From a virus, in the IMG/VR virus record IMGVR_UViG_3300046777_001331, positions 1 through 33,738 of that record: 33,738 nt of DNA; one strand, 5' to 3'. The notes under the pieces are model-generated. The model saw only the letters and a program-made list of their open reading frames with translations, did not search any database and had not been told where the DNA came from. Below are positions 4,802 to 31,240 of the stretch, piece by piece. The stretch's first letter is position 1, and the number at the start of each line of letters is the position of its first letter. Position numbers and translations under genes: made by a program.

Positions 4802-5383
4802 ATGAAATTAAAGTTCAGCATAGCAGCGAACGCACAGGGTGTAACACTTGGCAAGTACATCGACTACCAGAACGCAGTCGATAAGGTTGAACAGGTGCGC
4901 ATCATTACGGGCAAAAGTAGCGAAAGCATAAAGCTACTTCAACTGCCTGTGATGGACGAAATCATTATGCGCTTTGAAGCTGCGATTAAGATAGGCAGTA
5001 ATGACTTTCAGCGTAAGGTGCGTATAGGTGCCATTGAGTTAGGCTTTATTCCTAACCTGCAAGAGATGACCTTTGGTGAATACGTGGACTTGGATAGCGC
5101 ATGTGCTAACCTGTACAAGGATGGTATCGTGAACGGTGAAGCAGCACACAAAATGATGTGTATTCTTTACCGTCCTGTGAAAGCTAAGTTCGGTAACTAC
5201 TATGACATTGAGCCATACAAGACTGATGGCAAGCGTAAGTACGCGGATGCTATTAAGGACTTGACCTTAGACCATGTACTAAACGTACTGCTTTTTTTTT
5301 CGAGTTTAGAAATCGAGCTGTACAACAGTTCCCTCGAATATTTGGCAAAAGAGATAACGGAGATAGTGAAGGAGATGAAGTAA
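4802..5383 (+). CDS. Tail assembly chaperone-like protein (zero-frame product, gpG analogue)
   Basis: 193 residues. The diagnostic stretch is residues 74-140: IELGFIPNLQEMTFGEYVDL, then the helix to MMCILYRPV and the IEPY motif, followed by a long helix with LLFF. I recognise this from tail-chaperone-like proteins of Bacteroidota phages. Codons 164-166 are read from a run of nine T (5292-5300) holding a perfect zero-frame T-TTT-TTT slippery heptamer (5293-5299). The zero frame continues for 27 residues after it with family-like sequence and stops at 5381-5383. A coding domain follows in the -1 frame. In siphoviruses the tail chaperone is classically made as two products by a -1 frameshift. 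Confidence 0.8.
   Translation: MKLKFSIAANAQGVTLGKYIDYQNAVDKVEQVRIITGKSSESIKLLQLPVMDEIIMRFEAAIKIGSNDFQRKVRIGAIELGFIPNLQEMTFGEYVDLDSACANLYKDGIVNGEAAHKMMCILYRPVKAKFGNYYDIEPYKTDGKRKYADAIKDLTLDHVLNVLLFFSSLEIELYNSSLEYLAKEITEIVKEMK
5293..5299 (+). promoter_or_regulatory. Candidate -1 programmed frameshift (or transcriptional slippage) site
   Basis: T-TTT-TTT in zero-frame register inside a T9 run at 5292-5300. Slipping back one base after codon 166 continues as TTC GAG TTT and so on, into the open frame that ends at 5563-5565. The same run could act by RNA polymerase slippage, or could be a homopolymer sequencing problem. Confidence 0.6.
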
Positions 5384-5565
5384 CAACACCTGAAGGCTTA
5401 GCGGTCTACGGATGGTTTCACATCATAGAAAGCTTAGCCGATAGGGACATAACAAAGTTTGACGCTGTGACAGAGCGTAACGTATTTGAAGTGTTTACAC
5501 ACCTAACCTACTTAGCAGATTACGTGTACACACAAAAAGTTGAAATGAGAAAACGCAACAGATAA
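5299..5565 (+). CDS. -1 frame extension of the tail chaperone (gpT analogue)
   Basis: 88 residues in the -1 frame relative to 4802-5383. After a ~30-residue linker comes a compact helical domain, GLAVYGWFHIIESLADRD, then ITKFDAVTERNVFEVFTHLT, ending KRNR. The frame is open from 5257 but has no ATG, GTG or TTG before this domain, so it is unlikely to be translated alone. The fused product would be about 254 residues. The YGW, Asp-Ile-Thr-Lys and Asn-Val-x-Glu pattern matches C-terminal domains I associate with the second tail-chaperone frame in Bacteroidota phages. The stop overlaps the next start (TAATG). The coding character is well supported; the mechanism is inferred. Confidence 0.7.
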   Translation, partial: FEFRNRAVQQFPRIFGKRDNGDSEGDEVTTPEGLAVYGWFHIIESLADRDITKFDAVTERNVFEVFTHLTYLADYVYTQKVEMRKRNR

Positions 5566-8069
5566 TGAGTAGCAGTTATAATTATAGTTACAACGTTTTG
5601 ATTAACCGCTTCGAAGCATTCGCAGCCGGGCATCTACTTATCAAACGTTTTACGCATGGACAGATTGACCTTAGTGATCAGTTGAATGATGACCAATATC
5701 CTTTCATGCACGTAACACCTGATACGATTGAACCTGTAAAGGGTGCAATGCAGTTTGGCTTTCACGTTATGTTTGCTGATATACCCCGTGACAAAGAAAC
5801 GAAAGCGGAATACCAGCGCGAAGTCATCAGCGATTGTGTGCGTTTAGGTCAAGACCTTATAGCTGAAATACAAAACGGTTTAGAATTGTTTGGCTTTAAT
5901 GTACAACTCGTGAACAACGTAGTGTTTGAGCCATTCATGGAGGAGCAAAAGAACACCGTAACGGGTGTGGCTTTTACCGTAAAGCTTGAAGTGCCGTGGG
6001 ACTGGAGTGCATGCGACATCCCTGCGGTGTGGGCAGTAGGTGGTAACAGTACAGGTGGCAGCGGTTCGCCTATTGGTTTGCTTTTGCAAGTCAATGGAGT
6101 GAACAACGTAGTGCAAAGCGAACTCGACCTTGTTGCAGGTACGAACGTAACGCTTACCGATAACGGTGATGGTAGCGTAACTATTGATGCAACAGGTGGG
6201 GGTGGTGGTGGTAGTGGAACAGTTACAAGTGTTGCGCTAACTGCGCCCGCTGCATTCAATGTGAGCGGTTCGCCTGTTACTACTTCAGGAACATTAGCAC
6301 TATCTGCCGCGGGTAATGCATCGCAGTATATCACAGGTGCAGGTACTTTGCAAACCTTCCCGGCTATACCTGCTGCACAGGTGAATTCAGATTGGAATGC
6401 AGTAAGTGGTGTAGCGCAGATACTAAATAAACCAACACTTGCAGCGGTTGCAACAAGTGGTGATTACAATGATCTAAGCAACCTACCATTTATACCTGAA
6501 AATCTCAAAGACTTACAGGACGTAAGCGCAACGCTACCAACCAACGGGCAAGTGCTTACATTCAACTCAACAAGTGGTGAGTGGGAACCTGCAAACAATG
6601 GCACGGGTACGGTAACAAGCGTGGATATTTCTGTGCCAAATGCTTTCAATGTATCAGGAAACCCCATTACGTCATCGGGTACAATTGCTATAACTGCTGC
6701 GGGTACATCAACACAGTATATTACAGGCGATGGTCAACTAGCGAACTTCCCTACTATACCCGCTGCTCAAATACAATCCGATTGGACGCAAACTAACAAT
6801 GCAGCAGTTGACTTTATAAAAAATAAACCGAGCGTTGGTAGTGGTATTGCACACGGCACAGCAGCGGGAACAGATACATACACCGTAAGTATTACAGGTG
6901 TTGCTTCATATGCCGATGGTGATGCGTATTTAATTCGCTTTACAAATGGCAATACCACTACTTGCACGCTTAATATTAATAGCCTTGGAGCGGTTACTCT
7001 TTACCGTAACAATGACGGGGCGTTAATAGGTGGTGATATTTGGGAAGGTGCTGAAATGCTTTGTATCTACAACTCCACCTTAAACGTATTTCAATGCATA
7101 GGCACTTCATCAAATAGCCTCTTTGCCTATGTGACGAATGCAGAACCTAGCACCACAATTACTAAAGGACAACCGGTATACGCATTTGGTGGAACAGGTG
7201 ACCGCTTGACTGTGAAGCTTGCATATAACACAAGCGATGCAACAAGTGCGCAAACGGTGGGCATGGTAGTAAGCACCTCAATAGCCCCAAATCAGAAAGG
7301 TATTATCATTGTTGCTGGTCAACTTGACAACTTAAGCACGTTGCCTACACCTACTTTTGCCGATGGTGATGCAATCTATCTTGGAGCAACAGCGGGTTCG
7401 ATAACTAATGTCAAGCCATCTGCACCTAATCACTTGGTGTATTTGGGTATTGTTACAACTGCAAGTGCTGGTAATGCAGGCCGCATGTATGTACGTGTGC
7501 AGAACGGTTACGAGTTGAAAGAACTGCACGATGTAGACTTAATTAGTACACCACCTGCCAATAATGATGTACTCGTATTTGACACAAGTACTACGCCTGA
7601 TTTATGGAAGGCTAAAAGCATACAATCTATTTTAGGCTATACACCTGCGCAACGAGATACGTTTACTATTCGTATGGGGGTTGGCCCAGCAGCACCCGCA
7701 GATAGTACTACTTATTACTTCGGTGAAGCTGCATTAAACCTTAGCACAGTAGCTACCTTGTGGGATAATAAGATAGCGTTTGCCTGCAAGTTAGTAGGTG
7801 CGCAAATCATGGCTAACAATAGTACGGGTACTGCAACAAGTGAGGCATCCACCATATCAGTACGTATTAACAACACTACCGATGTATTGCTTTCAAACGC
7901 AGTTGTATTTACAGGTGTACCTGCTACTTCTACTTCATATACGGTAACAGGATTAACTCAAAACATTGCAGCTAACGACGAATTGACTATTAAGTGGGTA
8001 ACACCAGCGTGGGCAACAAATCCAACAGGCGCACAGCTAGTAGTAACATTATATTTTGAAAGAACATGA
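5565..8069 (+). CDS. Tail-completion-like domain fused to a repeat-bearing tail fiber/adhesin
   Basis: 834 residues. Residues 1-155 form a compact domain (NRFEAFAAGHLLIKRFTHGQ, IPRDKETKAEYQREVISDC, LEVPWDWSACDIPA) that occurs on its own in Bacteroidota phages, next to the tail chaperone, and is probably a tail terminator or completion protein. After a Gly/Ser linker (residues 155-170 and 211-217) come two copies of a 60-residue fiber unit starting GTVTSV (218-277 and 348-407). Between them is a fiber spacer (ILNKP, GDYNDLSNLP). Then follow a long beta-rich shaft and a C-terminal beta domain (about 690-834) likely to contact the receptor. The start overlaps the frameshift product's stop, so all three are coupled. 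Confidence 0.8.
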   Translation: MSSSYNYSYNVLINRFEAFAAGHLLIKRFTHGQIDLSDQLNDDQYPFMHVTPDTIEPVKGAMQFGFHVMFADIPRDKETKAEYQREVISDCVRLGQDLIAEIQNGLELFGFNVQLVNNVVFEPFMEEQKNTVTGVAFTVKLEVPWDWSACDIPAVWAVGGNSTGGSGSPIGLLLQVNGVNNVVQSELDLVAGTNVTLTDNGDGSVTIDATGGGGGGSGTVTSVALTAPAAFNVSGSPVTTSGTLALSAAGNASQYITGAGTLQTFPAIPAAQVNSDWNAVSGVAQILNKPTLAAVATSGDYNDLSNLPFIPENLKDLQDVSATLPTNGQVLTFNSTSGEWEPANNGTGTVTSVDISVPNAFNVSGNPITSSGTIAITAAGTSTQYITGDGQLANFPTIPAAQIQSDWTQTNNAAVDFIKNKPSVGSGIAHGTAAGTDTYTVSITGVASYADGDAYLIRFTNGNTTTCTLNINSLGAVTLYRNNDGALIGGDIWEGAEMLCIYNSTLNVFQCIGTSSNSLFAYVTNAEPSTTITKGQPVYAFGGTGDRLTVKLAYNTSDATSAQTVGMVVSTSIAPNQKGIIIVAGQLDNLSTLPTPTFADGDAIYLGATAGSITNVKPSAPNHLVYLGIVTTASAGNAGRMYVRVQNGYELKELHDVDLISTPPANNDVLVFDTSTTPDLWKAKSIQSILGYTPAQRDTFTIRMGVGPAAPADSTTYYFGEAALNLSTVATLWDNKIAFACKLVGAQIMANNSTGTATSEASTISVRINNTTDVLLSNAVVFTGVPATSTSYTVTGLTQNIAANDELTIKWVTPAWATNPTGAQLVVTLYFERT
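6216..6395 (+). repeat. Fiber repeat unit, copy 1 (60 codons)
   Basis: Encodes residues 218-277 of the fiber: GTVTSV, then FNVSGSPVTTSGT, SQYITG, FP.IPAAQ and SDW at the end. Divergent at DNA level from copy 2 but clearly duplicated in protein. The unit start is 390 bp before that of copy 2. Confidence 0.85.
6606..6785 (+). repeat. Fiber repeat unit, copy 2 (60 codons)
   Basis: Encodes residues 348-407: GTVTSV, FNVSGNPITSSGT, TQYITG, FPTIPAAQ, SDW. Same length as copy 1 with no gaps. Such units can be gained or lost by recombination and change fiber length. Confidence 0.85.
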
Positions 8070-13236: not shown

Positions 13237-13410
13237 ATGGAATCAATCAAAAACTCAATGCGCTATTTGCAGCTAGGCATCGCACCAAGTAGTAAGTATA
13301 ACTTTCAACTTCGAAAGTGGCAACGTGTGATGTGGTATATCACGCTGTATATATGGCGCACTATCTTGTTTTTCGGACTTATCTATTTACTATCTAAACT
13401 TATATACTAA
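13237..13410 (+). CDS. 57-residue membrane micro-protein before the tape measure
   Basis: Begins MESIKNSMRYLQLGIA and ends with a hydrophobic helix (residues about 34-56: WYITLYIW, then ILFFGLIYLLSKLIY). The ATG lies one base after the hub gene, and its TAA overlaps the tape measure ATG (TAATG), so it is a coupled real gene. A small membrane protein inside a tail operon is unexpected. No family recognised. Confidence 0.72.
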   Translation: MESIKNSMRYLQLGIAPSSKYNFQLRKWQRVMWYITLYIWRTILFFGLIYLLSKLIY

Positions 13411-15506
13411 TGGCAGAGCCTATTGTTCGGAGTTTCGTAATTGACACAACTGAGAGTGAACAAAACCTCAAAGATTTAAATGTTCAACTCAACGCAACGG
13501 GCGCAGCAGCCGATAATGCTGCTAATGGATTAGAGGAGTTGCCGGATGCTGAACAAAAAATAGTTCAATCTACTAAGTCACTTAGAAGTCAACTTAAAGA
13601 CTTACAAGCAGAATTAGCAAATACGGAACCTGATAGTGATAAATACCGTGAACTTGCAGCGGCAGCAGGTGAACTTAAAGACAGGATGCAGGATGCTGCA
13701 CAGGCAGTAGGTACTCAAGCAGGTGGTGCATTCGAAAAAGTTAGTGGATCACTTGGACTTGTTACATCCCGTATTACCAGCCTTGACTTCACAGGTGCAG
13801 CGGAAGGAGCGAAACAGTTAGCCGCAAACATTGGCGGTATCAAGCCGGGTGATATTACCAAAGGCATACAGGGTATAGGTACTGCCTTTGCGTCTATTGG
13901 TAGGGCGTTACTTACTAACCCTATTTTTTTGATAGGTGCAGCGATTGCCGCTGCTATCGTGTATGCAGATGAGTTATTGACGTTGGTAGATGGTGTAACC
14001 GATGCTGAACTTGAGCAACTTGAAATTCAAAAGCAACGTGCCGCACAGTCAAAGCAGCAATTAGATGCAATAAGTGACCAAGAAAACATCTTGCGTTTGC
14101 AGGGCAAGACTGAAAAGGAAATCTTGCAGCTTAAATTTAATCAGGCACAGGCTGCACTCAATGAGCAGAAGATAGTAATTGAAACTACTAAGGCACAACG
14201 TAAGGCGCAGTTAGAAGCAGCCGAACGTAATGCAAGCATCTTGACTGGTATAATCACTTTCTTGACTGCACCACTTCAATTGATACTTGCGCAGCTTGAT
14301 TTGGTCACGCAAACCGCTAAAGATTTTGGTTTACTAAGTGATGAAACATTTGCAAAGGTTGGTAACTTACGTAACCGATTCAATGAATCAATCACAAGTT
14401 TGGTATTTGACCCGAAGCAGGTAAAGGCCGATGGTGATAAGGCGATAGAAGAACAAGAAAAGATTTACAAAAACTTAGAGAATCAACAGGCGGGCTTTCA
14501 ATTATCTATTAATCAGATAAACCAAAAGGAAATCGATGATAAAAAAGCGGCAGATGAAAAGGCCGCAGCGGATAGAAAAACGGCAAATCAAAAGGCAGCA
14601 GAAGAAAGAAAGCAAGCAGCAAAGGATGCAGCGGATGCACAGCTAAAAGCCGAACAAGAAGTAAGTGATATTCTCAATCAGCTATACGAAGAGAACGTAA
14701 AGGAGTTTGAAGAAGCGGAAAAGAAAAAAACCGCAGCTGCTGAAGCCGAAGCAGCCAAACGCAAGAAAGCAGAAGAGGAATACGACGCAGCCATAACCGC
14801 ACTACGTGCTGAACAGGATGCTAAAAACCTTACTGCTGATCAACAGGAAATTTTAGCAATTGACCAGAAGTATTTAGACCTGCGTGAAAAGGCAATACAG
14901 GCAGGTGAAAGTACAGTTGAAGTTGATGCAGCCTATCAACAGGCATTAGATGACCAAGAGAAAGCATCTGCACAAAGACGTATACAGAATGAAGAAGCCG
15001 TACAAGATGCAAAGCTTGCATTGACTAGCGAGGCATTAGGTTCGGTAAATGCGCTTGTTGGTGCTTTTGCTAAGAAAGATGAGGCAAGTCAAAGGCGTGC
15101 ATTCAAAATACAGAAAGCAATCAGCATAGCACAGGCCACAGTTGATACGTATAAAGGTGCTAACGCCATCTTTGCCAGTGCAGCAGCTAACCCTGCAACG
15201 GTGCTTTTCCCTGCACAGCCATTCATTGCTGCGGGTTCTGCTATCGCTGCGGGTATTGCGAACGTAGCAACCATTGCTAAGCAAGAATTTCAAGGAAGTA
15301 CACCACCTGCAACAAATGAAAATCCACCTCCTTCATTAGATGGTGGGGGTGGTGGTGCGCAACCTGCACAGTTCAACCCGCTTGCATCTGCATTCTTGCA
15401 AGATAGACCTGAACAAGTAACACCGCGTGCGTATGTACTTGCGGGTGATGTGGCAAGTCAACAAGAAGTGCGTACTAAAGTTGAAGACCTCTCGCGTATA
15501 GGATAA
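13410..15506 (+). CDS. Tail tape measure protein
   Basis: 698 residues, mostly coiled coil, with long Ala/Lys/Glu/Gln helices (residues about 20-100, 210-275, 355-530). There are two hydrophobic segments (about 165-192, LLTNPIFLIGAAIAAAIVYA; and 272-296) of the kind that lets tape measures enter the host membrane on DNA ejection. A Gly/Pro-rich tail is followed by a short conserved C-terminus (YVLAGDVASQQEVRTKVE). Tape measures set tail length; by the usual relation of about 0.15 nm per residue this suggests a tail near 100 nm. It sits between the tail-tip genes and the prohead protease. Its stop is followed by a weak hairpin. Confidence 0.92.
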   Translation: MAEPIVRSFVIDTTESEQNLKDLNVQLNATGAAADNAANGLEELPDAEQKIVQSTKSLRSQLKDLQAELANTEPDSDKYRELAAAAGELKDRMQDAAQAVGTQAGGAFEKVSGSLGLVTSRITSLDFTGAAEGAKQLAANIGGIKPGDITKGIQGIGTAFASIGRALLTNPIFLIGAAIAAAIVYADELLTLVDGVTDAELEQLEIQKQRAAQSKQQLDAISDQENILRLQGKTEKEILQLKFNQAQAALNEQKIVIETTKAQRKAQLEAAERNASILTGIITFLTAPLQLILAQLDLVTQTAKDFGLLSDETFAKVGNLRNRFNESITSLVFDPKQVKADGDKAIEEQEKIYKNLENQQAGFQLSINQINQKEIDDKKAADEKAAADRKTANQKAAEERKQAAKDAADAQLKAEQEVSDILNQLYEENVKEFEEAEKKKTAAAEAEAAKRKKAEEEYDAAITALRAEQDAKNLTADQQEILAIDQKYLDLREKAIQAGESTVEVDAAYQQALDDQEKASAQRRIQNEEAVQDAKLALTSEALGSVNALVGAFAKKDEASQRRAFKIQKAISIAQATVDTYKGANAIFASAAANPATVLFPAQPFIAAGSAIAAGIANVATIAKQEFQGSTPPATNENPPPSLDGGGGGAQPAQFNPLASAFLQDRPEQVTPRAYVLAGDVASQQEVRTKVEDLSRIG

Positions 15507-15593: not shown

Positions 15594-16187
15594 ATGGAAA
15601 AAAGAAAAGTAGTTAAGTGTGTTATTGATGAAGAAGGCCGTTTGGGTATTACCGCAATGGGCCTTGTAGATAGCCCCGCAATCGAAGAAAATTGGATTGC
15701 ACTAAGCAAGATGCAACTTGCCAAAGTGGATGAAGAGCGTAGGATGCTATACGGCCCTGCACTCATTCCGGATAAGGAGATACTTCGCTATGATGACAAA
15801 GGCGAACCGTACTATGTGTACTTTGAAAAAAAGACTGTGCAACAATTAGCGCATCAGTTCTTCAAAAAGAATCTGCAACACACTACCAACTTGCAGCATG
15901 AGATACCAGTAACGGGCGTGACCGTTGTTGAATCATGGCTGAAAGAAGGCAAGCAGGATAAGAGCCTACAACTAGGATTGCCTGAACTACCCGATGGCAC
16001 ATGGTTTATTGGTACGCATGTAGATGAAGATGCAGTATGGGAAGATGTTAAGATGGGTAAGGTAAAAGGTTACAGCATAGAAGGATTCTTTAACGAGGTA
16101 GGTGTAGCCATGAGTGGCGTGAAAAACTATGAAGCAGAATTGATGTTGGAGCTTGATGATATTCTAAGCAAAGCAACCAATAAATAA
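15594..16187 (+). CDS. Prohead serine protease, XkdF-like
   Basis: 197 residues. It shows the XkdF pattern in order: LVDSPAIEENWIAL, GPALIPDKEILR, a tyrosine-rich strand (YYVYFEKKTV), the His motif NLQHEIPV (H102), VVESWL, GTWFIG, and the Ser motif KGYSIEGFF (S161). H102 and S161 are the expected catalytic residues. It would cleave scaffold and capsid precursor inside the prohead. Full length for the family. It follows the tape measure and precedes an unknown protein, the scaffold and the capsid gene. A TAnnTTTG match at 15582-15589 lacks a -33 partner and would place the start at the ATG itself. Confidence 0.9.
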   Translation: MEKRKVVKCVIDEEGRLGITAMGLVDSPAIEENWIALSKMQLAKVDEERRMLYGPALIPDKEILRYDDKGEPYYVYFEKKTVQQLAHQFFKKNLQHTTNLQHEIPVTGVTVVESWLKEGKQDKSLQLGLPELPDGTWFIGTHVDEDAVWEDVKMGKVKGYSIEGFFNEVGVAMSGVKNYEAELMLELDDILSKATNK

Positions 16188-17575: not shown

Positions 17576-18181
17576 ATGTCAAACATTAAAGAACAAATCA
17601 AATCCGTATTCTCGAAATACGGTATTGACCCTTCAACTGTTGGTATCAAGTTCGAAGAAGAAACCGCTACTGAAGCAGCTGCCACAGAGGTAAAGTTTGC
17701 AGTAGAAGGTACTTTGAATGACGGTACTAAAATCTACTCAACTGCTGATGAGTGGGTAGTAGGTGTGGATATCTACACTCAAGATGCTGAAGGTAACCCA
17801 GTACCTGTACCTGCGGGTGAATACCTGCTTGAGGACGGTGTGACCAAAGTCGTAGTAGGCGAGGATGGTCTTATTGCCGAAATCGAGCGTGAAGAACAGT
17901 CAACTGAAATGAGCAGCGAAGACCTCGTTGCCGTTATCGGTTCATTGTCTGAGCGTATCGCTGCACTTGAAACTGAAAAAACTGAACTTGCTGCTGCAGT
18001 TGAATCTGCAAAGAATGAAGTAGCAACAGTTAAGGCTGAACTTGCATCTGTAAAGAAAGCACCTGCCGTTCCTTCAGTTAAATCACAAGAGTTTAAGAAA
18101 AACGCACAGCCTGTTGTTGCTTCGAATGGATCATCATTCAGCGACTTCATGGAGCAAATCCGTGCTAAAAAAGTAAATTAA
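17576..18181 (+). CDS. Capsid scaffold-like protein
   Basis: 201 residues, acidic. The N-terminal helix is KEQIKSVFSKYGIDPSTVG. A beta domain (residues about 38-105: GTKIYSTADEWVVGVDIYTQ, then PAGEYLLEDG and VVGEDGLIAEI) is typical of a small domain seen before capsid genes in Bacteroidota phages. A predicted coiled coil spans 118-160, and a basic C-terminal end (FSDFMEQIRAKKVN) is suited to capsid contact. It directly precedes the major capsid gene (25 bp). Codon use is regular and similar to the capsid gene, as for highly expressed proteins. A scaffold role is inferred from position and build. Confidence 0.75.
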   Translation: MSNIKEQIKSVFSKYGIDPSTVGIKFEEETATEAAATEVKFAVEGTLNDGTKIYSTADEWVVGVDIYTQDAEGNPVPVPAGEYLLEDGVTKVVVGEDGLIAEIEREEQSTEMSSEDLVAVIGSLSERIAALETEKTELAAAVESAKNEVATVKAELASVKKAPAVPSVKSQEFKKNAQPVVASNGSSFSDFMEQIRAKKVN

Positions 18182-19151: not shown

Positions 19152-19694
19152 ATGGCTTGTGAATTAACCACAGGATTTACCCTCGGATGCCTTGAAGGTA
19201 TCGGTGGTGTTAAAGAAGTACTGATTGCTAACTACGATGACTTTACATCGGGTATTACCTTTGGTGGCCCTGATGGGGAAGTAGACGGATTGCCAACTGC
19301 TACAATCTACCGTTACGTTCCGTTTCGCAATAGCGGTTCTTACATTGAAACAGTAAACAAAAACCTTGAAACAGGTACTCTTTACTTTTCACAGGAAGTA
19401 GGATGGACTTTCGGTAAGTTGAATCAGGAAATGCGTAATGAGTTCTTGAATGTAGCTAAAGCTAAGATGATTGTTTTTGTTCGTACGAATGATGATCAAA
19501 TCTTGCTAATAGGTTCAGGTGAAGGTTCGCAGCTTACTGCTGGAACTGTTCAATCAGGCGCACAGAAAGCAGATTTGATGGGTTACCAAGTGACTACAAT
19601 TGCAGAAGAACTTTCTCCTGCTGTACACCTTGAGCCATTTACAAGTGTGCCTTTCGATAATTTCCCAGGCATTACTGTAAGCCCTGCTTACTAA
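19152..19694 (+). CDS. Major tail (tube) protein
   Basis: 180 residues. The N-terminus CELTTGFTLGCLEGIGGVKE is the signature start of tail tube proteins in Bacteroidota siphoviruses. Strands follow: FRNSGSYIETVNKNLETGT, then YFSQEVGWTFGKLNQEMRN, and a Gly-rich C-terminal sheet (SQLTAGTVQSGAQKADLMGY, ELSPAVHLEPF). Length and order fit the family. It lies immediately after the major capsid gene and is followed by a terminator, as expected for an abundant virion protein. Confidence 0.88.
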   Translation: MACELTTGFTLGCLEGIGGVKEVLIANYDDFTSGITFGGPDGEVDGLPTATIYRYVPFRNSGSYIETVNKNLETGTLYFSQEVGWTFGKLNQEMRNEFLNVAKAKMIVFVRTNDDQILLIGSGEGSQLTAGTVQSGAQKADLMGYQVTTIAEELSPAVHLEPFTSVPFDNFPGITVSPAY

Positions 19695-19777: not shown

Positions 19778-20167
19778 ATGATATATCTAACTACAAATAC
19801 AGCGAATCAACAAGTGTATCTATCACTTGACGAAGCGAGGCAGTACTACAGCACAGCATTCACAAACTATCTTCTTATTCTCACACACGAAGAGAATAGC
19901 ACTACCGGGAATGACCTTGCACAGGTTGCTACCATTGTTAGCGAATCGGTAAGAATTACACACCTAACTATTACAACAGTTGGGTTAACTTTGGCGGGTA
20001 GATACCGCTATGAAGTATACGGCCAAAACTCTCCAAGTAATACTAATCCGACAAACGCTGCTGTTGTTGGTATTGTGGAGCGTGGGTATGCTGTTTTAAA
20101 TGACAATACAAGTTGGTTTGACGTACCTGTCAACACCATACCAAATGATATAATATATGAACCATAA
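19778..20167 (+). CDS. Conserved virion-associated protein of unknown function
   Basis: 129 residues. Segments such as LSLDEARQYYSTAFTNYLLI, GRYRYEVYGQNSPSN and PTNAAVVGIVERGYAVL form a pattern I know from proteins near the portal of Bacteroidota phages (a beta-sandwich-like domain). The function is not established. It is the first gene after the promoter within the tail tube terminator. The portal start lies 11 bases inside its 3' end. Confidence 0.72.
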   Translation: MIYLTTNTANQQVYLSLDEARQYYSTAFTNYLLILTHEENSTTGNDLAQVATIVSESVRITHLTITTVGLTLAGRYRYEVYGQNSPSNTNPTNAAVVGIVERGYAVLNDNTSWFDVPVNTIPNDIIYEP

Positions 20168-22097
20168 CGAATCAAACATAGTATCGCTAAAGCTTAGTGA
20201 ATACGTAGCTAAGAGTGATGCGGAAAAAGTAGACCGTAAAGGGTGGGTAAACTACGGTGATCAAAATGATTTCCCGCAGTACCTACGTGACCTATCACAC
20301 GAATCACCTGTACACGGTTCTCTCGTTGTGGCTATTGGTGATATGATAGCGGGTAAGGGTATCCAGTCTGAACAATACCAAGCTGAACTAGACGCACTAA
20401 ATATAGACACTTTAACCTATGCCTGTGCAAAGGACTTGAAGTTGTTTGGCGGTTTTTTCATTGAAGTGATTTGGAGCAATGACCGCACGGTGATTAGCAA
20501 GCTAAATGCTATACCATTTGAAGAATGCCGCATTGCAGTCAATCAAGAAGACGAAAGCGAGATAGGTATTTACCACAGTTACGATTGGTCAAACATTCGT
20601 AAGAAAAAGAACACGCCCGAATTCATTCCGAAGTATAATTACCTCACACGCAATGAAGAGCCACGTCAAATCTATTGGTGCTTTACGTACACAGGTAGTG
20701 ATTCTTATCCGCGTCCCGATTACTGGAGTGCGATTAATTACATTGAGTTAGATAAGCAGATATCTATATTCCATATCAACCAAATTTCAAACGGTCTTTT
20801 CCCTTCTACTATCATCAACTTCTATAACGGGCAAGCAACGCCTGAGCAGAAGCAGCAGATGATGTTGGACTGGGAAAACAAAATGAGTGGCGCACGTAAT
20901 GCAGGTAAGGTGGTAATGTTCTTTAACGAGCGTGACCAACCTAAGACTGAGATTACACCATTCCCTGTAAACGATGCGGATAAGCAGTATCAATTGATGA
21001 ATGATACAGCACAGCAAAAGATTATCACAGCGCATCGTGTGACTACACCACTTCTATTTGGTATACGCGAAACATCAGGATTTGGTAGCAACAAAGATGA
21101 AATGGCTACAGGTCTTGAGATATTCAACAAACAAGTCATTGAGCCATATCAGGCAATGATCAATAGCAGTATCGAAGAACTGTTGAGCAATCAATTGCCG
21201 GGTGTTTCATTTGAGATTGTACCAAACACACCACTTGTAGCAGAACAAACATCTGTTGTAACCGATGCGAATGCAACAGGTACTACGGCAGATGTTGCTG
21301 CTACTGCTTTGAACGGTGCGCAGATTAGTTCACTTGTTGACATCGTAATGCAAAGTGCTGCGGGTGCTGTGCCTGTTACAAGTGCTAAAGCAATTGTTCA
21401 AGCTGCATTCCCAACGTTACCACCTGCAACAATCGATGCAATCTTTGCCGATGTGTTACCCGGTACGCTGCAACCAACTGAAGTGATTCAATCGAGTGTT
21501 GAGTTAAAAAAAAAAGTAGATGATAGCACAGTAGGTGATGCGTTAATTGCATTAGGTGAAGACCAAAAAGAAGAATGGATTTTGATTGATGCGTATAACG
21601 CTGATGAAGAAATTGAGCATGAGTTTGCGGTGCGCACAGGTGCGGCAAGACCAGCGGCAAAGAGTGAACAGGATGCCGTTATTGATGGCAAATACTTTAT
21701 TACTCGTTACGTTTACGCAGGTAGCTTTACTCACGATAATATGCGCCCATTCTGCAAGAAGATGGTTGAAGCGGGTAAGCTATACCGCAAAGAAGATATA
21801 GTTTCAATGGAGAATGTCGCAGTCAATCCCGGATGGGGACCTGAAGGCGCAGATACTTATGACATTTGGTTCTACAAAGGCGGTGGTAATTGCCGCCACT
21901 TTTGGGAGAAGCGTGTATATGTAGATGCAAGTGGTGCGAAGATTAATCCTAATGATCCTGATGCGCAGCGTATCGCTGTTTCACTTGCTGAACGTATGGG
22001 CTATAAGGTGCGTAATAACGCACTTGTAGCAAAGCTACCTGAAGACATGCCTTACAACGGCTTCTTACCAACCAATCCTATTTACGGCAATCAATAA
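20157..22097 (+). CDS. Portal protein with MuF-like C-terminal domain
   Basis: 646 residues. Residues about 1-345 are a portal: KGWVNYGDQNDFPQYLRDLS at the N-terminus, LKLFGGFFIEVIWSNDR, then TAHRVTTPLLFGIRETSGFG and the helix DEMATGLEIFNKQV typical of portals in this host group. An Ala/Thr/Val-rich linker (350-450) leads to K451-K453, encoded by an A10 run (21506-21515). The C-terminal domain (about 470-646) has F532-C533, YRKEDI, GGGNC579-R-H581-FW and PYNGFLPTN. The FC, Gly-Gly, CRH-W series recalls the end of MuF/SPP1 gp7-type minor head proteins. Portal and MuF-like functions thus appear in one chain. No separate MuF gene was found. Confidence 0.88.
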   Translation: MNHNESNIVSLKLSEYVAKSDAEKVDRKGWVNYGDQNDFPQYLRDLSHESPVHGSLVVAIGDMIAGKGIQSEQYQAELDALNIDTLTYACAKDLKLFGGFFIEVIWSNDRTVISKLNAIPFEECRIAVNQEDESEIGIYHSYDWSNIRKKKNTPEFIPKYNYLTRNEEPRQIYWCFTYTGSDSYPRPDYWSAINYIELDKQISIFHINQISNGLFPSTIINFYNGQATPEQKQQMMLDWENKMSGARNAGKVVMFFNERDQPKTEITPFPVNDADKQYQLMNDTAQQKIITAHRVTTPLLFGIRETSGFGSNKDEMATGLEIFNKQVIEPYQAMINSSIEELLSNQLPGVSFEIVPNTPLVAEQTSVVTDANATGTTADVAATALNGAQISSLVDIVMQSAAGAVPVTSAKAIVQAAFPTLPPATIDAIFADVLPGTLQPTEVIQSSVELKKKVDDSTVGDALIALGEDQKEEWILIDAYNADEEIEHEFAVRTGAARPAAKSEQDAVIDGKYFITRYVYAGSFTHDNMRPFCKKMVEAGKLYRKEDIVSMENVAVNPGWGPEGADTYDIWFYKGGGNCRHFWEKRVYVDASGAKINPNDPDAQRIAVSLAERMGYKVRNNALVAKLPEDMPYNGFLPTNPIYGNQ

Positions 22098-29941: not shown

Positions 29942-31240
29942 CTACGCCCACGAATAGCTACCGTAGTTCGGGAATAGTTCGAAATACATACGCATCATAA
30001 TAGCATCTGCGTAGTCAGGTGACTTGCCGTGCATGCGGGCTATTTCCTCTTTGCTTATCACGGCTAATTTGCCATCGGCTTCAGGTTGCCTACGGCGTAT
30101 CATATCCAGTTCTTGAATGATTACATCCCGGAACTGATTCACTTTAAAGATTACTTTGTTCTGCTCGATTAATTCTGCAAGCTTAAAGTAGCACTCAGCC
30201 TTTTGATTCGTGTATCTATCTGCTTGCTTAGCACGCCCACCATTCAAGAAGCCTCTGCACTTTAAGCTATCCACTACACCCCCTCCTACTCCATCTTCAT
30301 CACAGATCACATTGCTTAGTTTGATGCTGTGCCTATCGCATAGTTGGCGAATGGTGCTAACTACTGTGGTGATAGGTTGCTTACGCAGCTCGTGTATCTC
30401 CATCAAATGCAAGCCATGCCATACGCATATCACGCTGCGGTCTTTTCCTAGTCGTGCGATATCTGCACTTATATACTTTTCACCTTTGCTTTCTTCATCC
30501 CGGAAGCAGCGCACTAAGTCATCGTATTGGTAAAGGTTATCTACGGACTCATCATACTCCCAATCTCCATCCAATAAACGTCTTCTGTCCACTTCAGGCA
30601 GCATGCGCAGCGTTTCAATGTACGATTCGGGTAGATGCGGATTGTCATTTGGCAATGATTGTATGAACGCAAGATGTTGCGGTAGGCTTTGCGTCTTAAA
30701 CGGGGAATAGAACTCGTTGTACAACCATCCTTTTGAAGGGTTGCATGTAAGCAACATCTTTGGTTTGAGGTCATATTGATTAAGTTTGAATCGAATTCGC
30801 GACTGAAGTATGTCTATTGCTCGTTTGCTAACCTGTGCCGCCTCGTCTACGTAGGCATCTGTTAATTCTAACCCGCCTAAACTATGAAACTCCGCATCTG
30901 ATGGATAGGCAAACAAGTCTTTCAGTATTATCTCGCTGCCATTGTTAAACGTGATGACGTGCGTTTGATTGTTAATCGTGTAGTGTTCGTTAGGTGATAA
31001 TCCAAACATCTGCGCTACCTCAAAGAATGTTTTTAACGTGGTCTTTTTTAGCGTATCTAATTTGCTACGGCCTATCAACCCACGTGTACCTGGATACTTG
31101 AACCTTCGGCTTATTTGCCATGCACATCCGATAAATGATTTGCTTCCGCCTGCTGCACCACCGAAAAGCACCACACGTGCCGGGTGTGAATTACCCAGCA
31201 CACGCAATGCTTCTTTTTGTTTCGGTAGGTACTCAATCAT
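29942..31240 (-). CDS. terL: Terminase large subunit
   Basis: 432 residues. ATPase half: Walker A GGAAGGSKS (27-35), Walker B TDAYVDEAA with D132-E133, and coupling motif LLTCNPSKG (163-171). Nuclease half: D260 in ISADIARLG, D314/D316 in ICDEDGVGGG, and D409/D412 in SPDYADAIMM. It is a complete DNA-packaging motor with an RNase H-like nuclease. It is on the minus strand between the SSB-like gene (TAATG overlap at 31240) and the recombination genes, 11 kb from the portal and 25 kb from the small-terminase candidate on the other strand. Confidence 0.96.
   Translation of the reverse strand: MIEYLPKQKEALRVLGNSHPARVVLFGGAAGGSKSFIGCAWQISRRFKYPGTRGLIGRSKLDTLKKTTLKTFFEVAQMFGLSPNEHYTINNQTHVITFNNGSEIILKDLFAYPSDAEFHSLGGLELTDAYVDEAAQVSKRAIDILQSRIRFKLNQYDLKPKMLLTCNPSKGWLYNEFYSPFKTQSLPQHLAFIQSLPNDNPHLPESYIETLRMLPEVDRRRLLDGDWEYDESVDNLYQYDDLVRCFRDEESKGEKYISADIARLGKDRSVICVWHGLHLMEIHELRKQPITTVVSTIRQLCDRHSIKLSNVICDEDGVGGGVVDSLKCRGFLNGGRAKQADRYTNQKAECYFKLAELIEQNKVIFKVNQFRDVIIQELDMIRRRQPEADGKLAVISKEEIARMHGKSPDYADAIMMRMYFELFPNYGSYSWA

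Follow-up and report, generated by a model that had tools for sequence, protein, structure and literature searches.

The short and long tail proteins of phage lambda, gpG and gpGT, differ by a -1 slip at the heptamer G_GGA_AAG. Frameshifts in tail-chaperone genes are textbook cases of ribosomal recoding; the ribosomal mechanism is established for lambda-type tail genes (PMC5009743), P2 uses T_TTT_TTG in the same way, and all the tail-chaperone frameshifts that we found described in the literature are ribosomal. Bacterial RNA polymerase slips efficiently at nine A or T (PMC5009743, PMC1088944), and nine is the run length at which counter-selection becomes visible in many bacterial genomes (PMC1088944). 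The literature searched contained no report of RNA polymerase slippage in a tail-chaperone gene.

The window considered here, meaning the whole stretch of DNA that was analyzed, is a 33.7-kb IMG/VR virus record with a single plus-strand run of nine T, at positions 5292-5300. This run lies in a 193-aa open reading frame (4802-5383, plus strand) encoding a putative tail assembly chaperone, and its zero-frame codons across the run are CTT TTT TTT TCG. The original prediction placed the heptamer T_TTT_TTT at 5293-5299 in the zero frame, with the -1 frame open from 5257 to a stop at 5563-5565. The sequence bears out both: the heptamer, which is the slip site if the slip is ribosomal, is in phase, and the -1 frame is bounded by TAA at 5254-5256 upstream and TAA at 5563-5565 at its end. 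The -1-frame extension (FFFEFRNR...YGWFHIIESLADRDITKFDAVTER...) occupies 5293-5565 on the plus strand, its TAA stop included, and the third (+1) frame is closed by a TAG at 5307-5309 (plus strand), three codons past the T run. The next gene (5565-8069, plus strand) begins with an ATG that overlaps the -1 stop as TAATG. We propose that the gene at 4802-5383 would yield two proteins of 193 and 254 aa with a common 166 N-terminal residues, and that the last 88 residues of the longer form would be read from the -1 frame after a frame switch at the T9 run. The computed length of the slip product (166 + 88 = 254 aa) agrees with the approximately 254 residues foreseen, and from the comparative evidence below this fusion is very probably made.

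Relatives were gathered by scans of viral contigs and genome contigs, to which phage P12024S was added. The T run is spanned by 421 loci, 302 of them distinct over 300 nt, while 4 further loci end before the site; identity to the window gene falls as low as ~25%. The run was never shorter than nine T in the 302 distinct contexts (300 with T9 and two with T10). Elsewhere in the related loci (1.47 Mb) there were 10 runs of at least nine T, compared with 225 of 225 at the site, and by these counts T9 at the slip site exceeds chance. Every relative spanning the site has T_TTT_TTT in zero-frame phase, both frames continue past the T run wherever the contig is long enough, and the -1 ORF is open and conserved in each locus that spans it. 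A single continuous frame was sought across the 421 spanning loci and none was found; a T8 or T10 form fusing the two frames, a case that the original prediction had raised against itself, was absent from all relatives, and the few T10 forms keep the frames apart. The downstream ATG overlaps the -1 stop (at offsets -1, +2 or -5) in 265 of 313 relatives (~85%), which points to that stop as the real end of translation. Beyond the slip, the zero-frame tail runs for 18-86 codons across the family.

Codon-phase variability upholds the earlier suggestion that both products are selected. For the 69 distinct sequences of the window's clade, pairwise variability upstream of the run was 0.176/0.113/0.467 at zero-frame codon positions one to three; after the zero-frame stop, read in the -1 frame, it was 0.113/0.096/0.441. 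The peak thus moves from position 3 of the zero frame to position 3 of the -1 frame, indicating a clean switch of frame across the T run. Between the two, where both frames overlap (5301-5383, plus strand), the values were 0.136/0.036/0.102, against 0.44-0.47 at free third positions, and such low variability at every position implies that both frames are constrained there. A clade with an overlap of 81-86 codons gave 0.048/0.011/0.063, against 0.244 at its own upstream third positions, and in a third, more diverged clade the zero-frame constraint lay mostly in the first half of the overlap. The openness of the zero-frame tail was rejected as a sign of selection in the window, being uninformative: synonymous recoding of the -1 frame leaves the zero frame open, so the phase test was used instead. 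Judged from these substitution patterns, the two-frame arrangement at T9 is real and strongly selected. The patterns support the view that a -1 slip at T9 would yield a second product with a different C-terminus and that both products are under selection.

We lean slightly toward RNA polymerase slippage as the cause of the frame switch at T9. The host polymerase would slip on the nine Ts, and a transcript with one extra U would send ordinary ribosomes into the -1 frame, while transcripts with other U counts would presumably restore the zero frame or meet the nearby third-frame stop. The chief rival is a ribosomal -1 frameshift at T_TTT_TTT, in which two tRNA-Phe slip back by one base and give the 254-aa form as a minority product; we regard it as a serious possibility, though a somewhat improbable one. 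Both mechanisms predict an identical 254-aa protein, with LFFFEFR across its junction. The presence of the canonical heptamer in the zero frame of every relative favors the ribosome, as do the precedents given above. However, a heptamer requires only seven T, yet at least nine are kept in three codon registers. The register NTT TTT TTT TNN, with two extra T before the Phe codons and one after, was found in 274 distinct contexts; NNT TTT TTT TTR, with one before and two after, in 22; and TTT TTT TTT CNN, which has three Phe codons and no extra T, in four, besides the two T10 forms. Where the 5' T of the run has been lost, the 3' side has gained one. In the NTT register FF is preceded only by V, L or I, whereas the NNT register leaves that residue free, with N, G, S, T and A all found there. 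A tree built from the upstream region assigns approximately one origin to the NNT register and one to the TTT-register sequences with T9. A T10 form adjoins the latter, a position that would follow if the run changes by way of 10 rather than 8. The register changes therefore seem to number about two independent events on the tree, rather than hundreds. Two marks of a transcriptional slippage site, at least nine A/T and a length kept across codon registers, are thus seen here, in three registers with few origins.

The maintenance of T9 in all three codon registers is new and favors RNA polymerase slippage. In 194 contexts a change to C at the eighth position would alter neither protein and would keep the canonical heptamer, yet none of them has C there, although TTC accounts for 30% of the Phe codons of these genes. 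The RNA downstream of the site was folded in 30 relatives over 60 and 100 nt, and no stem-loop of the kind that had been anticipated was detectable (mean z -0.03 and 0.20); such a stimulatory structure is a common though not universal feature of ribosomal sites. No heptamer other than a T-based one occurred among relatives down to ~25% identity, unlike the swaps seen among P2-like phages, and E. coli ribosomes shift much less readily at U_UUU_UUU, a weak site, than at A_AAA_AAG (PMC5009743). Taken together, at least nine T in three registers, the lack of a stem-loop and the lack of alternative heptamers favor polymerase slippage over ribosomal slippage. Against this, double coding fixes several of the nine T positions, which weakens the argument from run conservation. 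A +1-frame stop lies within five codons of the run in 92% of relatives, versus 52% in the control; we rejected this as proof of RNA polymerase slippage, given that double coding partly forces such stops. Of the lambda-like mechanism first proposed, the slip at T9 is supported, while its ribosomal nature is made doubtful by the registers, the folding result and the constancy of the heptamer.

It is very unlikely that the -1 region forms an independent gene with a start codon of its own, so that no fusion is made. P12024S gp39 is annotated as such a gene, beginning at an ATG within the -1 frame, and 40 of 313 relatives have some ATG, GTG or TTG in the first 34 codons of the -1 frame. However, no start is conserved among them, and conservation of the -1 frame reaches the T run itself. 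In the window, ATG, GTG and TTG were looked for in the -1 frame and none occurs before 5467, which is already inside the domain, and the few in-frame GTGs within the domain are unconserved; the extension is start-less, as originally described. A second domain with its own start, the other case that had been held against the proposal, is not borne out by these scattered codons. Phage P12024S itself has the pair annotated as gp38 and gp39, and its -1 frame has no stop between gp39 and the T9 run, so that, from its reading frames, gp39 (L081:12528-12695) is the -1 extension of gp38 rather than a separate gene. Chance overlap, a decayed gene or a homopolymer sequencing error is a negligible prospect, for although homopolymers are error-prone and the frames read singly resemble a broken gene, the arrangement recurs in 302 distinct contexts from independent assemblies and purifying selection acts on both frames.

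The shared/zero-frame part and the -1 extension of the 254-aa protein were folded separately with AlphaFold2. The zero-frame product was predicted with a mean pLDDT of 89, its last helix (residues 156-192) passing through the slip site. The extension was predicted to be helical at -1 residues 34-89 (mean pLDDT 75), after a disordered linker; these residues correspond to 5392-5559, in line with the helical domain that had been placed at about 5392-5560. The zero-frame gene had no Pfam match, and its sole PHROG match (32199) is of unknown function. Searches of solved structures (PDB) by sequence and by fold gave no significant match; the HK97 gp13 chaperone (2ob9_B) was matched by structure only at E=8.1 (TM 0.17/0.29). 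Structure searches matched uncharacterized phage proteins, including P12024S gp38. Flavobacterium phage 6H gp10 (L226:10352-10927, minus strand) is a weak structural relative that has no T9; its record shows no clean reading frames around the corresponding site, and it was rejected as a relative with the same site.

Two traits of tail-chaperone genes could be checked by position. A canonical X_XXY_YYZ heptamer is present at the junction (T_TTT_TTT, 5293-5299), and the gene is not immediately upstream of a tape measure: it lies in the late region, and the candidate tape-measure gene (13410-15506, plus strand; PHROG 1506 E=1.9e-6, PHROG 28 E=3.5e-4) starts 7.8 kb downstream of the -1 stop, close to the 8 kb noted originally. 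With this architecture and no significant fold or profile match, tail chaperone is therefore the best guess, and the gene at 4802-5383 is probably a tail assembly chaperone. The -1 slip and second product of the lambda-like gpG/gpGT reading are thus supported, whereas the chaperone identity found no backing in Pfam or in the HK97 structure (E = 8). By analogy with gpG/gpGT, the short form might serve as a coat on the tape-measure protein, to which the long form might recruit tail-tube subunits; the putative tail-tube protein of the window is encoded at 19152-19694.

Gene order varies within the family. In one clade (L148) the chaperone-like gene stands between the terminase large subunit gene, which is upstream of it, and small genes of unknown function, and gene spacing in further clades resembles this. 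In the window, by contrast, the terminase large subunit gene (29942-31240) is far away and runs on the minus strand, opposite to the chaperone-like gene. The gene at 5565-8069 encodes a protein of 834 aa. Its first ~155 residues take the place of a gene of ~150 aa that stands alone in other clades, and part of the remainder matches a tail-fiber PHROG; a small tail protein may have become fused to a fiber here. Separate genes at 15594-16187 and 17576-18181 match different halves of PHROG 24921 (positions 2-180 and 222-329), so that its parts (a protease and perhaps a scaffold), which form one protein elsewhere, appear to be split here with a gene between them. The window also has an A10 run (21506-21515) within its portal-protein gene (20157-22097), which was rejected as a slip site as the other frames stop at once.

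Whether this large family of tailed phages, which is mostly uncultured and includes at least some phages of Bacteroidota, sets the ratio of its chaperone-like proteins by RNA polymerase slippage on T9 is in our view an evenly balanced question. If so, the same regulatory outcome would come from a different machine, and the lambda G/GT architecture would have been reached by that machine as well, as with the two dnaX mechanisms. The analysis also offers a likely role for a previously unannotated gene pair that hundreds of environmental phages carry, and it corrects how gp38/gp39 are annotated in P12024S, a cultured phage whose host is Persicivirga sp. IMCC12024.

Lambda gpG/gpGT resembles the window in having a short gene and a start-less helical -1 extension in the late region, with a minority long product, which would presumably hold here also. 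It differs in its mixed heptamer, where the window has T9, and in its proximity to the tape measure, from which the window gene is 7.8 kb away; moreover, the zero-frame tail extends 18-86 codons past the slip in the present family and is selected in the window's clade, and no sequence or fold kinship with lambda is detectable. P2 E/E+E' shares a T-based -1 slip (T_TTT_TTG) that joins two overlapping tail ORFs. The P2 control comprised P2, in which the site is annotated as translational, and nine P2-like annotated phages, chosen because the P2-like viral contigs collected were too alike. These ten have T6-7 or a different heptamer, with 8-19 zero-frame codons left and heptamers that vary between relatives, in contrast to the invariant run of at least nine T described here. 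The dnaX gene of Thermus thermophilus, with nine A, likewise has a nine-base A/T slip run and an early stop in the non-productive frame, but dnaX belongs to cells and its slipped frames soon reach a stop, whereas the present gene is from tailed phages and gains a conserved domain from its -1 frame. In Nonlabens phages P12024S/L, gp38-gp39 are homologous to the window's pair (26% identity) and share its T9 and -1 extension; unlike in the window, their pair directly follows the terminase large subunit gene, and the zero-frame tail is 27 codons long.
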